A stretch of DNA of 64,000 bases from Erysipelotrichaceae bacterium. GTDB taxonomy: Bacteria; Bacillota_I; Bacilli_A; ML615J-28; CAG-313. Both the position numbers and the translations under genes were made by a program. The stretch spans positions 175,636-239,635 of the forward strand of contig SVBG01000002.1 of the NCBI GenBank assembly GCA_015059015.1, in the 5' to 3' direction. Positions 42,839-64,000 of the stretch are shown in pieces. Position 1 is the first letter of the stretch. Every line of letters begins with the position of its first letter. The notes beneath the pieces are model-generated. The model was given only the letters and a program-made list of their open reading frames with translations. It was not told the DNA's origin and ran no database searches.

Positions 42839-42894
42839 CGCAACAAATAAGTTCAACTTAATTAATTGTATTAATATTGTTATTATTATATAAT
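42839..42894 (+). promoter_or_regulatory. CGCAAC element and promoter of the GNAT relic
   Basis: TTGTAT (42866-42871), 17 bp, TATAAT (42889-42894). The upstream CCGCAACAAATAAGTTCA resembles elements at 43362 and 63228. Confidence 0.5.
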
Positions 42895-42914: not shown

Positions 42915-43372
42915 ATGATTATTAATATTAAGACATTAACAAAAGATCAATTTAATCAATTTATAAAGTTAGTTAAATTATATTTTAAAGAAATAGAAAA
43001 TGAAATACTTGATGATGAGAGTGCTAATTCATATGTAAATAATATTTTAATACAACTTGAAAAGTATAAAACATTATGTTTAATTGTTTCAATAGATAAT
43101 AACAATATTAATGGATTTTTATTAGGTAATACATTTTATAACTATAATAATGAAAAATGTTCTTTTATATTAGAGTTATATGTAAGTTGTGAAAATAGAC
43201 TACAAGGAATAGGAAAAAACTTGTTGAAAAATTTGAACATTTGAGCCAATGTATAATATATCTTACTGCAAGCAAAGATGCAGAAAAATTTTATAAATCT
43301 TTAGGATATATAGAAACAAATAATTTTGATAAAGATAATGGTAATAAGGTTTATAAAAAGATTCGCAACTAA
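42915..43372 (+). pseudogene. GNAT acetyltransferase, frameshifted at an A-run
   Basis: The first frame (42915-43244) gives a GNAT N-terminus up to the acetyl-CoA loop RLQGIGKN, then ends early. Reading continues in the -1 frame as LVEKFEHLSQCIIYLTASK, then AEKFYKSLGYIET to TAA 43370-43372, the normal end of a GNAT domain. The join is at GGA AAA AAC, so loss of one A from a seven-A run explains it. The heptamer A-AAA-AAC is also a classic -1 slippery site, so rescue by frameshifting is possible, as is a sequencing error. Confidence 0.7.
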
Positions 43373-43428
43373 TTAGTGCAGTTATTAAAGATAAATATGT
43401 TGATAATTTTATAAAATTGATATATAAT
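43362..43428 (+). promoter_or_regulatory. Conserved upstream element and promoter of the first KLEVI leader
   Basis: CGCAACTAATTAGT (43364) lies exactly 36 bp before the -35 TTGATA (43400-43405); 17 bp later is TATAAT (43423-43428). The same layout is found at 63229-63293. Confidence 0.7.
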
Positions 43429-43471
43429 ATTAGTGAAAAAAGACCTTAAACAACGAAAGGAGTTGATTATT

Positions 43472-43540
43472 ATGAATTATATGTTTTATAATAAATTAGA
43501 AGTAATCAAAACCTTTAAATCGTTATCTTACCTTATTTAG
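43472..43540 (+). CDS. Leader peptide 1 (MNYMFYNKLEVIKTFKSLSYLI)
   Basis: The 22-codon ORF has a strong GAAAGGAG site and encodes M-N-Y-M-F-Y-N then KLEVIKTFKSLSYLI. Its KLEVI codons contain TTAGAAGT (43496-43503). The TAGAAGT part of this can pair with ACTTCTA in the 5' arm of the terminator at 43571. The same ribosome site, KLEVI sequence and distance to the terminator are found in the leader at 63336. A regulatory leader read by the ribosome is the best reading; the inducing signal is unknown. Confidence 0.7.
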   Translation: MNYMFYNKLEVIKTFKSLSYLI

Positions 43541-43570
43541 GATAAATGTTTTAAGCATTTGAAATATATT

Positions 43571-43603
43571 AAGCACTTCTAGTTTATTAGAGGTGCTTTT
43601 TTT
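43571..43603 (+). terminator. Attenuator terminator of leader 1
   Basis: 11-bp stem AAGCACTTCTA (43571-43581)/TAGAGGTGCTT (43588-43598), one G-U, then seven T residues. Its left arm is partly complementary to the leader ORF. Confidence 0.82.
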
Positions 43604-43630: not shown

Positions 43631-43675
43631 ATGTATAATGAAAATGTTTATGAAAGAGAGGTTACTAAATTTTGA
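43631..43675 (+). CDS. Second short ORF overlapping the TTG start of the XRE-GNAT gene
   Basis: ATG 43631 has an excellent AAAGGAGG site and encodes MYNENVYEREVTKF, ending TGA at 43673-43675. The stop overlaps the TTG start of the next gene (TTGA). Translational coupling of a weakly started gene is the likely role. It has no copy at the 63336 leader. Confidence 0.5.
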   Translation: MYNENVYEREVTKF

Positions 43676-44829
43676 GTTTAGATGAGTTTGGATCTATTCT
43701 TAAAAAGTTAAGAACTGTTGCAGGTTTAAGTCAAGATGATGTTGCGAAAAAACTTGCTATTTCAAGACAATCAATTTCAAAATGGGAACTAGGAATAAGT
43801 TTACCAGATATTATATATCTAGTTCCTCTTACTAAAATATTAGATTGTGAAATTGAAGATCTATTACAAATTAAAAGAAAGGATGTGGATAATATGAATG
43901 ATAATATTAAAATTTTAGCAAGGAAAAATATAGATAGAGAAGAATATGAAGTATTAAAAGAGATTTATGGTAATAGATGGCTAGATTGTTCGATATGCTT
44001 TATTAACACTTCTTATTATAATGATGATTTCTTTGTTTTAGGGTATTTAAATAATAAAGTAATAAGTGCATTACATATCACTAAACATCCTGAACAAAAT
44101 GATTTTTATTTAATTAGTGATTTAGGATTTAAAGAAGGCTATGAAAGTAATGATTTTGCATCTTCTATGATTGATTCAGTACTTATAATATTAAAAGATT
44201 TAAACTGTATAAAAGTTGGAGCATTTGTATATAAAAATTATAAGGAAGTTTTTGAAAATTTTGGATTTATAAAGTCATCAGATGATTATGAATTTGGTAA
44301 TGATAAAAAGTGCACAAGTTGCATAGATCCGTATTATGAAATGAATATTGAACAAGATTATTATTGTGAAGAAATAAATGAAGAAAATGCTGGTATTGTT
44401 TCAAAAGTAATAATGACAAAAAAGTATAAACATTCTAAAGATGTTCCTGATTATTTTAAACCAACTCTTTATATGTTTAAACAAAACTTATTACGGGAAA
44501 ATAAATTTGAAAATGAAAAAGTATATGTAATCTTAAATGGTAAAATAGTTTGCGGATATACAAAAATGTTTTATGAAGAAGATAAAAACTTATACTTAAG
44601 AATAGATTTAAGAGAAGAAAGTTTATTTAATGAGGCGGTGAAGGTTGCGATTAATACAGCAAAAGTATTCACTAATAAAATAAAAGATAAAATATTGATT
44701 GAAAATATTGTATTTTATGTAAATGATAATTTATTATTAAAAGAAGAATTTGATTTTTATAGAAAAGCATTAAAAGAAAATAATTTCATAACAGAAGATG
44801 ATATAAAGTTTGTGTTTAAGTTTAATTAA
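43672..44829 (+). CDS. XRE regulator fused to a GNAT-like acetyltransferase region
   Basis: The 385-residue protein has an XRE domain (about 5-62: LRTVAGLSQDDVAKKLAISRQSISKWE), then GNAT-like sequence (about 100-210: FFVLGYLNNKVISALHI, FASSMIDSVLIILKDL, KVGAFVYKNYKEVFENFGF) and a second poorly conserved GNAT-like half (about 230-385). The acetyl-CoA loop is not canonical, so catalysis is uncertain. Expression lies behind a leader-peptide attenuator, and the TTG start overlaps a short ORF. By analogy with inducible resistance genes it may act on an antibiotic or translation stress, but this is inference. Confidence 0.75.
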   Translation: MSLDEFGSILKKLRTVAGLSQDDVAKKLAISRQSISKWELGISLPDIIYLVPLTKILDCEIEDLLQIKRKDVDNMNDNIKILARKNIDREEYEVLKEIYGNRWLDCSICFINTSYYNDDFFVLGYLNNKVISALHITKHPEQNDFYLISDLGFKEGYESNDFASSMIDSVLIILKDLNCIKVGAFVYKNYKEVFENFGFIKSSDDYEFGNDKKCTSCIDPYYEMNIEQDYYCEEINEENAGIVSKVIMTKKYKHSKDVPDYFKPTLYMFKQNLLRENKFENEKVYVILNGKIVCGYTKMFYEEDKNLYLRIDLREESLFNEAVKVAINTAKVFTNKIKDKILIENIVFYVNDNLLLKEEFDFYRKALKENNFITEDDIKFVFKFN

Positions 44830-44992: not shown

Positions 44993-45817
44993 ATGTTTAA
45001 AGATAAATTAAAACATTTAAGAGAAAGTGCAGGTTTAACTCAAAAAGAATTAGCTGAAAAGATATATGTATCTCGAAGTGCAATAAATAAATGGGAACTT
45101 GGTAATGGAATACCTAGTGATGTAAATCTTGATGCGATATGTAAATTATTTAATGTGTCTGAAGAATGGTTATTAGATAGAAACGATTTAAAGATTATTG
45201 CAGAAAAAATTGAAAAGTTATTAAGTCAAAAGGAAAAAGACTATATATTAGAATATTATAGTGAGTTTAATAATGAAGAATGTGGAAAGTGGAATACATC
45301 ACTAAAAGCTAAATGGTATGATTATAAAATAACTGAATATTTTGAAGAAAACTTTAATTTTAAAGAATTTAAAACAATTTGTAATATTGGTATTGGACCA
45401 GGGCACTGGGATAGGTACTTATCATATCATATGAATGATGAATGTAAATTAATAAGTATAGATATAGATTCTGATATCACAGAAACATTTAGGTTATGTT
45501 TAGAAAACGAACAAAATAAAAGAAATATAGAAATCGTCAATAGTGATATATTTGACTATATTCCTAGTCATAAATTTGATATTATTACAATGATAGGATC
45601 TACAGTTAAAGAAATTGGATTATATAAAGAAACATTTAAAAAAGCTATATCAATGCTAAATGATAATGGGGAGTTATTTTATTCAAGTGTCACAAAAGAA
45701 GAAACAAAAGATTTACTATTAAGCGCTATTAATGATACAGGATATGTAGTTAATAATTATCAAAGATTAGAAAAATATGGCAAAGTATTAATTTTGGCTA
45801 AAATAATGAAAGAATAA
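44993..45817 (+). CDS. XRE regulator fused to a class I SAM methyltransferase
   Basis: The 274-residue protein has HTH at about 4-60 (LRESAGLTQKELAEKIYVSRSAINKWE, NGIPSDVNL) and a Rossmann methyltransferase at about 95-274. The SAM-binding motif is ICNIGIGPGHWDRYL (about 132-146), then ISIDID and FDIITMIGS. The target is unknown; this could be a SAM-sensing repressor or a true enzyme. Its DNA-binding domain closely matches that of the 46864 protein, and both share a repeat operator. Two small membrane protein genes follow. Confidence 0.82.
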   Translation: MFKDKLKHLRESAGLTQKELAEKIYVSRSAINKWELGNGIPSDVNLDAICKLFNVSEEWLLDRNDLKIIAEKIEKLLSQKEKDYILEYYSEFNNEECGKWNTSLKAKWYDYKITEYFEENFNFKEFKTICNIGIGPGHWDRYLSYHMNDECKLISIDIDSDITETFRLCLENEQNKRNIEIVNSDIFDYIPSHKFDIITMIGSTVKEIGLYKETFKKAISMLNDNGELFYSSVTKEETKDLLLSAINDTGYVVNNYQRLEKYGKVLILAKIMKE

Positions 45818-46863: not shown

Positions 46864-48192
46864 ATGTTCAAATACAAATTAAAAGAATTAAGAGAAAAAG
46901 CTGGTTTATCTCAGCAGGCTTTAGCAGATAAATTATTTGTTTCAAGAAGTGCTGTTGCGAAATGGGAAAATGGTAATGGTATTCCAAGTGATGTTAATCT
47001 AGAAGCAATATATGAATTATTTAATGTTACATATGATGATTTATTTGGAGAAGAAATCATTAATGAATATAGAGAAGTTACAAAGAGTAAATTTAATTAT
47101 AAAAAACTTCTTGTAGTTACAATTATAATTTCTTCCATTATTATCTTTTCTATTATTGGACTTTTAGTTATACAAAAGATTAAATATCAAAATGATTATG
47201 AACAGCATAAACAAATAATGAGAGAAGCTGCTGATTTCAACGAACCTGTTAGTTCATTTGGTGAAGTACCTGAAGTTTATTTAGATGTTATAAATAAAAA
47301 AATATTAGATAATAGTAGTAATGTTTTTCTTGATAGTAAATATATTTATACTGTTAATGATACTTCAAATAATGATATAGTTGAGATAGCTAAATATGAT
47401 TATAAATTTAATGTTATTAAGAAATTTGAATATTTTGTTTATAATGGATACAATTCAAGTATAGGTCAAATTATAACAACTTCTGATGAAGGTATACTTA
47501 TAGTCTGTAATCGTGACACATATTTTGGAGAATATTATCAATATAGAGGGTATTCTAAAATTACAAAGTATGATAACAATTATCAATTTGAATGGGAATA
47601 TACATTTACAAATGGCGAGAATAGTATTTCTGATGTTTATGAATATAATAATAATTTCTATGTTTTTTCTATTTATTCTGAATTTAGTGAAGATGTTTCT
47701 GCATCAGTATCAGATATTAAAATATATATTTTTAATCAAAGTGGTAATATAGTAGATGAAAAGAATGTAACAAATGATGAATATGGATATATAGACTTTG
47801 TACTTTTTGAAGATAAAACATTTTATATTTATGGTAGTTATCAACCTATTGAAGGAAATATAGATAACGTTTGGGAATATAATATGAATTTAGAATTAGT
47901 CAATAGCTATGAAATTGAAGAATTTTGGAGAACATATAAGTCTTCAGATGGTCTTATGATATATGAGGATGCTGTAATTGTTAATAGCACACAAATACCT
48001 AGTTCTTATGGTATAATTAATTTATGTATAAATTTAGAAACAGGTTATTTGTTAGTTTTACATAATTATATAGATTATGATTGGGAGTGGATGGAAAAAC
48101 ATCCATATTTTAATCGTGTACTAATGATATATCAAACAGTTTATTTATATATGGATTTAGATGGAAATATAGTTTGGTGTAAAAGCATATAA
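46864..48192 (+). CDS. Membrane-anchored XRE regulator with extracellular beta-rich domain
   Basis: The 442-residue protein has a cytoplasmic HTH (about 4-60: LREKAGLSQQALADKLFVSRSAVAKWE, NGIPSDVNL), a transmembrane helix (about 80-102: LLVVTIIISSIIIFSIIGLLVI) and an extracellular part (about 105-442). The last has repeated strand motifs (KYIYTVNDTS, GILIVCNRDTYFG, NNFYVFSIYSE, KTFYIYGSYQ) suggestive of a beta-propeller. It could transduce an external signal straight to DNA. A ToxR-like one-component sensor is the closest concept; family unknown. Confidence 0.8.
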   Translation: MFKYKLKELREKAGLSQQALADKLFVSRSAVAKWENGNGIPSDVNLEAIYELFNVTYDDLFGEEIINEYREVTKSKFNYKKLLVVTIIISSIIIFSIIGLLVIQKIKYQNDYEQHKQIMREAADFNEPVSSFGEVPEVYLDVINKKILDNSSNVFLDSKYIYTVNDTSNNDIVEIAKYDYKFNVIKKFEYFVYNGYNSSIGQIITTSDEGILIVCNRDTYFGEYYQYRGYSKITKYDNNYQFEWEYTFTNGENSISDVYEYNNNFYVFSIYSEFSEDVSASVSDIKIYIFNQSGNIVDEKNVTNDEYGYIDFVLFEDKTFYIYGSYQPIEGNIDNVWEYNMNLELVNSYEIEEFWRTYKSSDGLMIYEDAVIVNSTQIPSSYGIINLCINLETGYLLVLHNYIDYDWEWMEKHPYFNRVLMIYQTVYLYMDLDGNIVWCKSI

Positions 48193-63227: not shown

Positions 63228-63293
63228 CCGCAACTAAATAGTTCATACTCAGCAAACGAAATACTTTACATTTTCTTTCTTATTTGATATAAT
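63228..63293 (+). promoter_or_regulatory. Conserved upstream element and promoter of the second KLEVI leader
   Basis: CGCAACTAAATAGT (63229) lies 36 bp before the -35 TTTACA (63265-63270), and 17 bp later is TATAAT (63288-63293). Spacings equal those at 43364-43428. Confidence 0.72.
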
Positions 63294-63335
63294 GATTATA
63301 TATAAAATAAAATTAATTGAAAGGAGTTGATTACT

Positions 63336-63401
63336 ATGAAAAATATAAACATATATAAATTAGAAGTAATCGGTTTCTTTCATGTGACTGTTTTTTGTTA
63401 A
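63336..63401 (+). CDS. Leader peptide 2 (MKNINIYKLEVIGFFHVTVFC)
   Basis: The 21-codon ORF has a GAAAGGAG site identical to that of leader 1. AAATTAGAAGT (63357-63367), covering KLE codons, is perfectly complementary over 11 bp to ACTTCTAATTT (63437-63447) in the terminator. Ribosome position on this ORF would decide between antiterminator and terminator. Start-to-terminator distance is 98 nt against 99 nt at leader 1. Confidence 0.72.
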   Translation: MKNINIYKLEVIGFFHVTVFC

Positions 63402-63433
63402 GTTTTATTAATTATAATATGCCTTTGAATTTT

Positions 63434-63463
63434 AACACTTCTAATTTATAGAAGTGTTTTTTA
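63434..63463 (+). terminator. Attenuator terminator of leader 2
   Basis: Perfect 10-bp stem AACACTTCTA (63434-63443)/TAGAAGTGTT (63449-63458) with T-run, 25 nt before the next gene. Confidence 0.85.
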
Positions 63464-63487: not shown

Positions 63488-64000
63488 ATGAATGAATTAA
63501 AAAAGTTAATAAAAGAAATTGATGGATGTCATTGGAATAATATTTTAAGAATATGTGATTTAGCTATGAAAAGATTTTATTGTATAGAATTTTTGAAGTT
63601 TAATTTTACATATAAGATAGGTTGTTTAGATCTAATATATATGCATTTTAGTATTCCAGTAAATAATCTTCCTAAATATGAAGTTAGTAATAAGGTGTTT
63701 TTGGAAGACTATGTATTACGTCAACTTACTTATGAATTAAGAAGTTTAAATGATGAAATTTATGGATCAAATAATTCACAAAAAGAAACACATGGAATGA
63801 TTAAATATCAAGAATGTGATGATAGAGTTTTATCTAGAAATTCTATTTTTTTAGATGAAGATAAAAATGAACTCAATTATTATATAAAGGTTAAATTACC
63901 TTTAGTAAATAATAAGATTAGTGCTAAAAGCGTATTACAATATATAACCAAGATTACTTTAGTGGTTAGAAATGTAATAAAGAATATTGATGTTTTAGAT
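63488..64000 (+). CDS. ABC_ATPase-family protein (PF09818-like), 3' truncated by window end
   Basis: 171 codons are present, open to the last base. The start LKKLIKEIDGCHWNNI, a later LEDYVLRQLTYELR, then YQECDDRVLSRNSIFLDED and IKVKLPLVNNKI follow the order of N-terminal motifs in the predicted ABC-class ATPase family (COG3044). That family has an RIDG-type start, then GQ-x-VLERTS and VGLPA. Gly-rich parts of the consensus are poorly kept, so the protein is divergent. It lies behind the second KLEVI leader attenuator and follows GGGAGG. Function of the family is unproven. Confidence 0.65.
   Translation, partial: MNELKKLIKEIDGCHWNNILRICDLAMKRFYCIEFLKFNFTYKIGCLDLIYMHFSIPVNNLPKYEVSNKVFLEDYVLRQLTYELRSLNDEIYGSNNSQKETHGMIKYQECDDRVLSRNSIFLDEDKNELNYYIKVKLPLVNNKISAKSVLQYITKITLVVRNVIKNIDVLD

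Follow-up and report, generated by a model that had tools for sequence, protein, structure and literature searches.

Putative initiation-arrest transcription attenuators upstream of XRE-GNAT and PF09818 ATPase genes in an order of uncultured gut Bacilli

Two RNA leaders in the 64,000-nt stretch of DNA analysed here (the window) belong to a covarying family of attenuators and are predicted to act as initiation-arrest, ribosome-mediated transcription attenuators of the vmlR type, which would switch on the genes downstream when a ribosome is arrested at the early codons of a short leader ORF. From the sequence and from folding models, a probability of about 0.72 is assigned to this reading. The three helices of the leaders, their covariation, their positions and the family itself can be read directly from the sequence. 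The suggestion of the first-pass annotation that ribosome position might switch termination is supported by these helices, by the family and by compensatory changes. Found among gut Bacilli of an uncultured order, the family has no match in the RNA-family library and points to genes that are probably switched on in these bacteria upon ribosome arrest.

In both leaders, copy 1 (43364-43603) and copy 2 (63229-63463), four strands form three helices that share strands and are mutually exclusive, namely an anti-antiterminator (1:2), an antiterminator (2:3) and an intrinsic terminator (3:4) followed by a U-run, the layout of classical attenuators. The features are listed in Table 1. In helix 1:2, which the first-pass annotation had overlooked, the leader Shine-Dalgarno sequence and its flank (AAAGGAGTTGATTAYT) pair with AGTAATC..CTTT within the ORF, at 16/16 positions in copy 2 and 14/16 in copy 1; the helix comprises 14-18 pairs and sequesters the Shine-Dalgarno sequence. 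In copy 1, the role of strand 1 is further backed by a duplex that exceeds 200/200 shuffles and by covariation. Helix 2:3 (TAAATTAGAAGT:ACTTCTARTTTA) pairs at 12/12 positions in both copies, with one G-U pair in copy 1, and the antiterminator spans 12-13 bp. The 7-bp pairing TAGAAGT:ACTTCTA that had been proposed is therefore real but too short, the actual helix being 12 bp in both copies. The remaining geometry had been described correctly: the dyad element, at 43364 and 63229, lies 36 nt ahead of the -35 element in both copies, the distance from -10 to ATG is 43 nt in copy 1 and 42 nt in copy 2, the leader ORFs of 22 and 21 codons contain KLEVI, and both terminators carry U-runs. Moreover, both leaders fold better than 200/200 shuffles (z -3.2 and -3.5). 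Searches of the 2.0 Mb source genome returned exactly these two leaders. The bipartite pattern of strand 2 plus strand 3 gave two matches in the genome and its reversed control none, and BLASTN with copy 1 as query found copy 2 at E=1.5e-7, the weaker matches to the leader region that were examined being coding sequence.

Table 1. Features of the two leaders and of adjacent elements, in window coordinates
Feature	Position	Strand	Remarks
Third dyad element	42839..42854	+	before GNAT gene 42915; -10 TATAAT at 42889
Dyad element, copy 1	43364..43379	+	GCAAC-N5-AGTGC; probable activator site; overlaps end of frame-disrupted GNAT
Promoter, copy 1	43400..43428	+	-35 TTGATA 43400-43405, -10 TATAAT 43423-43428; direct reading
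Strand 1, copy 1	43456..43471	+	AAAGGAGTTGATTATT; covers the leader Shine-Dalgarno and its flank; forms anti-antiterminator P1 with strand 2
Leader ORF, copy 1	43472..43540	+	MNYMFYNKLEVIKTFKSLSYLI
Strand 2, copy 1	43491..43516	+	ATAAATTAGAAGTAATCAAAACCTTT; partner is strand 1 or strand 3
Intrinsic terminator, copy 1	43571..43603	+	11-bp stem, U-run; folding -14.3 kcal/mol
Strand 3, copy 1	43575..43587	+	ACTTCTAGTTTAT; 5' arm plus loop of the terminator; forms the 13-bp antiterminator with strand 2
Second short ORF	43631..43675	+	MYNENVYEREVTKF; strong Shine-Dalgarno; stop overlaps TTG start of XRE-GNAT; direct reading
XRE-GNAT fusion gene, putative target of copy 1	43672..44829	+	Pfam HTH_3; GNAT via alignment to PF00583 relatives
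Dyad element, copy 2	63229..63244	+	
Promoter, copy 2	63265..63293	+	-35 TTTACA, -10 TATAAT
Strand 1, copy 2	63319..63335	+	18-pair duplex with strand 2
Leader ORF, copy 2	63336..63401	+	MKNINIYKLEVIGFFHVTVFC
Strand 2, copy 2	63356..63381	+	
Intrinsic terminator, copy 2	63434..63463	+	folding -10.8 kcal/mol
Strand 3, copy 2	63437..63448	+	ACTTCTAATTTA; 12/12 bp with strand 2
Start of PF09818 ATPase gene	63488..64000	+	ORFs of L025, Pfam

Covariance models were built stepwise and 43 genomes of the same order were searched. The family comprises 12 loci of the same layout in nine of these genomes, two each in G000, G001 and G007 and one each in G021, G024, G029, G030, G033 and G034. By matching leader sequences, the nine include public MAGs from goat cecum (RGIG1779) and roe deer cecum (RGIG4026), together with rabbit Lapin-014 bin45, STD2_253 and Mollicutes bacterium Phil14. 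In all 12 members a Shine-Dalgarno sequence, an ATG and an ORF with its stop between strand 2 and strand 3 are retained, the ORF and its ribosome-binding site overlap the anti-antiterminator, as judged from sequence alone, and the start of the -10 element lies 43-49 nt from the ATG. A covariance search of 395 genomes of the class gave no convincing relative outside the order. The weak matches there (E 0.001-0.01) that were examined proved to be ordinary 3'-end terminators or coding sequence, as did most of those examined inside the order; L037, L047, L052 and L054 were rejected as coding matches. L071, a PF09818 gene of G024, was also excluded, for it is preceded by a short ORF and a terminator but the helices do not beat shuffles; both elements differ from those of the family (MKKRVENNYLVYKVIEAFICIKHMFTIFFG) and possibly represent an unrelated attenuator. 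Rfam returned no family at gathering score across the whole window except two tRNAs, and no match at E<=1 for five members.

Compensatory changes occur in all three helices. For helices 1:2 and 3:4, 95.1% of cells are paired among the 12 distinct members, and two-sided changes are found in 13/25 pairs compared with a shuffled mean of 3.9, a value reached by 0/500 shuffles, as counted on a structure-fitted alignment that favours these helices; when the partners are slid, pairing falls to 38-52%. Helix 2:3, which lies outside the fitted structure, is 95.6% paired and shows 7 two-sided cells versus 2.3 in shuffles (0/500), counted on ungapped strands that were chosen by eye and hence lean towards the helix; with partners slid, 40-52% is paired. 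Furthermore, when the 12 members are taken singly, none or almost none of 200 strand-2 shuffles does as well as the real sequence for either helix. The divergent members are the most telling: AAAGAATAGAGGT pairs with ACTTCTATTCTTT in L036 and GAAAACTGGAAGT with ACTTCTAGTTTTC in L034, where copy 1 has ATAAATTAGAAGT and ACTTCTAGTTTAT. Relatives elsewhere and compensatory changes, for which a covariance search had been called for earlier, were thus both obtained from the 12 loci in 9 genomes.

The leaders precede two sets of genes. The eight loci of lineage A stand before a small XRE regulator, and a GNAT domain is present in five of the eight: XRE is fused to GNAT behind copy 1, in the goat-cecum relative L027 and in L032, a separate GNAT gene comes after it in L031 and L035, and it occurs without GNAT in L034, L036 and L080. 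In the XRE-GNAT protein of the window the GNAT part was not detected by Pfam; the assignment comes from relatives with clear PF00583 matches, which align along the length of the window protein, and the R-x-x-G-x-G acetyl-CoA motif of the latter is lost or degenerate. Short ORFs comparable to the one at 43631-43675 lie in the interval between terminator and XRE gene in L027, L032, L034, L035 and L036, and the overlap of the short ORF stop with the XRE start suggests translational coupling. In lineage A leaders, ACCTT or a variant of it also lies 5' of the leader AAAGG (window 43442-43460) and could fold into a small hairpin that covers the Shine-Dalgarno sequence, a feature absent from lineage B except L033. 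Two XRE genes, L061 near 3633 (G034) and L060 near 3257 (G007), both in reverse-strand coordinates, have no in-frame ATG, GTG or TTG before the domain. AUU, which also serves as the start codon of infC, looks like their start, with a good Shine-Dalgarno sequence in L061 and overlapping the stop of a short ORF in L060. After XRE-GNAT the window holds two further XRE-domain fusions, to a methyltransferase (44993-45817) and to an unknown C-terminal part (46864-48192). In G001 the region between XRE-GNAT and XRE-methyltransferase contains genes absent from the window, among them an ORF of repeated YTGPGGGL units (L058, gene at leader +3202 to +3618).

Lineage B comprises four loci before PF09818 ATPase genes. 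In three genomes (copy 2, L028 and L030) PF09818 leads into two ABC exporter genes, and in L033 the PF09818 gene occurs without exporters. Behind copy 2, two genes for PF09818 ATPases and two for ABC exporters form an operon-like run that begins at 63488 and extends past the window. In G007 the PF09818 gene downstream of the L030 leader is broken into two frames of 526 and 63 codons (L059, leader +186 to +1911), and this target copy may be damaged. Two PF09818 genes found outside the order have no such leader, although only a short upstream stretch was covered for one of them. The genes downstream hint at drug resistance in a way that is only suggestive. The exporters behind lineage B in three genomes were counted in favour of a drug-response attenuator, the loss of the acetyl-CoA motif from the GNAT of the window against it.

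In the proposed mechanism, a ribosome moving normally through the leader ORF would cover strand 2, the 3:4 terminator would form and transcription would stop. Pairing of strand 1 with strand 2, for example when no ribosome is present, would hide the leader Shine-Dalgarno sequence and likewise leave the terminator to form. If instead a ribosome were detained on the first codons, most likely because a drug or some condition stops initiation or the earliest peptide bonds, it would cover strand 1 and leave strand 2 free to capture strand 3; no terminator would then form, and XRE-GNAT or the PF09818 ATPases and ABC exporters would be transcribed. That the ORF is translated, where the ribosome arrests, what induces the switch and that an activator takes part are all inferred; the inducer is probably a ribosome-targeting antibiotic. 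A response to translation stress, as proposed by the first-pass annotation, is plausible; judging by the geometry, the arrest would occur at the start codon.

The effect of ribosome position was modelled by equilibrium folding of 10 leaders, with 15 nt to each side of the P-site kept unpaired to represent the ribosome. With the ribosome on codon 1, helix 2:3 forms before strand 4 exists with a probability of 0.92-0.97 in 10/10 leaders; with the ribosome on codons about 6-14 the antiterminator probability is near 0, and on late codons (about 16-20, near the stop) helix 2:3 and readthrough are favoured again in several members. The 3' edge of a ribosome arrested on a start codon reaches +16 to +18 (PMC12121999). 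In all leaders the first ORF nucleotide of helix 2:3 is number 20-24, so that strand 2 starts just past such a ribosome. For full transcripts the outcome of masking differs between members at equilibrium, and the terminator prevails in L030 and L033 despite an early ribosome. Without a ribosome and before strand 4, the antiterminator beats helix 1:2 in 5/10 members, and in L032 and L036 it wins even at full length. Since half of the members adopt the antiterminator at equilibrium in the absence of a ribosome, the off state must need folding order or polymerase pausing.

The same mechanism could serve a different signal, namely start-codon dwell of any cause, such as shortage of initiation factors, cold, starvation or hibernation, with the leaders acting as a sensor of initiation capacity. 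This is improbable, if still to be taken seriously, as the geometry reports occupancy of the start codon and not a drug, and the two XRE genes described above apparently begin at AUU, a codon disfavoured by initiation factor 3. Against it, the downstream exporters fit drug defence better and known systems with such geometry respond to drugs.

The retained leader peptide bears on a further alternative, in which nascent KLEV would stall the ribosome together with a drug such as a macrolide, in the style of erm leaders. The motif [K/R][L/I]EV is found at codons 8-11 (9-12 in L034) in 11/12 members with several synonymous codons. However, a sequence that has to pair with the invariant ACTTCTA in a fixed frame must encode [L/I]-E-V, and the motif of L080 has drifted to ILED with one helix pair lost alongside. 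Furthermore, the motif lies under strand 2, and a ribosome stalled at codons 8-11 would cover that strand, reduce the antiterminator to about zero and favour the terminator. The conserved KLEVI noted earlier is thus better explained by pairing than as a peptide signal, and peptide-specific arrest is quite unlikely. At codons 2-7, ahead of strand 2, no position has an amino acid common to all members, as is expected if arrest is peptide-independent.

A switch independent of the ribosome, with a protein (e.g. the XRE product) or a small RNA bound to strand 1 or 2, would suit the XRE gene that stands first downstream in one lineage, and strand 1 could have a binder other than the ribosome; it is nevertheless very unlikely, because the Shine-Dalgarno sequence, ATG and ORF kept in 12/12 members would be needless for a protein-binding switch and no known RNA family matches. 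Attenuation by amino-acid starvation, with an uncharged tRNA stalling the ribosome at regulatory codons, shares its three-helix logic with the trp operon and is the least credible, as the leader peptides lack the run of codons for a regulating amino acid found in leaders of the trp/his kind, codons 2-4, where a stall could act, vary among members, and the genes downstream, which encode a regulator, ATPases and ABC exporters, are not biosynthetic.

Besides start-codon arrest, the leaders probably receive a second input, an activator bound to the dyad. The consensus GCAAC-N5-RGTKC precedes 9/12 leaders, a weaker form precedes L030, and it is missing in L033 and L080. From dyad start to -10 the distance is 58 nt in eight leaders and 37-38 nt in L034 and L036, and it is 49 nt for the GNAT gene at 42915, which has the third dyad copy (42839) without an attenuator. 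These steps of ~10 and 20 nt would keep the site on one helix face, as expected for an activator. Among the genome matches to the dyad that were examined, only the three sites in the window precede promoters; the others (L088, L092, L094 and L099) are apparently inside genes. The GNAT gene under the third dyad (42915-43244) is frame-disrupted near its end, and the related genome G001 is likewise without a full-length frame.

A mobile cassette, as had been suggested for the two copies, does not fit the distribution of the family. Each kind of leader keeps its own downstream genes across genera, and lineages A and B occur together in G000, G001 and G007, which argues for two old paralogues, each kept with its own genes. 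Scans of viral contigs found neither a leader nor a relative of XRE-GNAT, plasmids held nothing resembling the copy 1 leader and phages nothing resembling the copy 2 leader. The leaders therefore look vertically inherited.

The leaders may be part of a small regulon in this order that combines an activator acting at the dyad with a start-codon-arrest sensor; its effectors would include the PF09818 ATPases as new ribosome- or drug-response ATPases, with possible XRE feedback. This wider proposal is speculative and less likely than not. The family itself ties PF09818 ATPases, for which no bacterial function was found described in the literature searched, to the probable response to ribosome arrest. 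In the wider proposal they would be regulated as ABC-F resistance factors are, and XRE products, two of them apparently AUU-started, may feed back on the regulon. The family also suggests that an initiation-arrest sensor requires only the correct distance between AUG and antiterminator, and no peptide motif.

The RNA features that can be tested place the leaders with ribosome-mediated transcription attenuators of drug-response genes such as vmlR, bmrB and hflXr. For the B. subtilis vmlR leader, initiation-arrest attenuation was shown experimentally, with induction by lincomycin and retapamulin, drugs expected to stall ribosomes at initiation (PMC9226507). By its described architecture, it likewise has an anti-antiterminator overlapping a short upstream ORF, an antiterminator and an intrinsic terminator, and needs no peptide motif. 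It differs in that its ORF has only three codons, its Shine-Dalgarno sequence precedes the first stem and its target is an ABC-F protein; in the present family, an ORF of 18-27 codons has its Shine-Dalgarno sequence within the first stem, and XRE-GNAT and PF09818/ABC exporter genes are the putative targets. In B. subtilis bmrB-bmrCD, ribosome-mediated attenuation precedes a heterodimeric ABC exporter and is joined by a separate transcriptional layer (AbrB) (PMC4191407); there the terminator lies inside the leader ORF, whereas here it follows the short ORF, and in the source genome two PF09818 ATPase genes separate leader from exporters. Listeria rli80-hflXr, which is antibiotic-induced, also has a short ORF across the anti-antiterminator, together with an antiterminator and a terminator (PMC6310831), but it carries an RLR peptide-arrest motif, and no such motif is found in this family. 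In E. coli toiL-topAI-yjhQP, an upstream ORF detects ribosomes that tetracycline or retapamulin arrests at the start codon (PMC12121999), acting on translation and Rho-dependent termination and not on an intrinsic terminator. The attenuation principle is thus known from Bacillus, while no description of the RNA family, of its two sets of targets or of the dyad they share was found in the literature searched.
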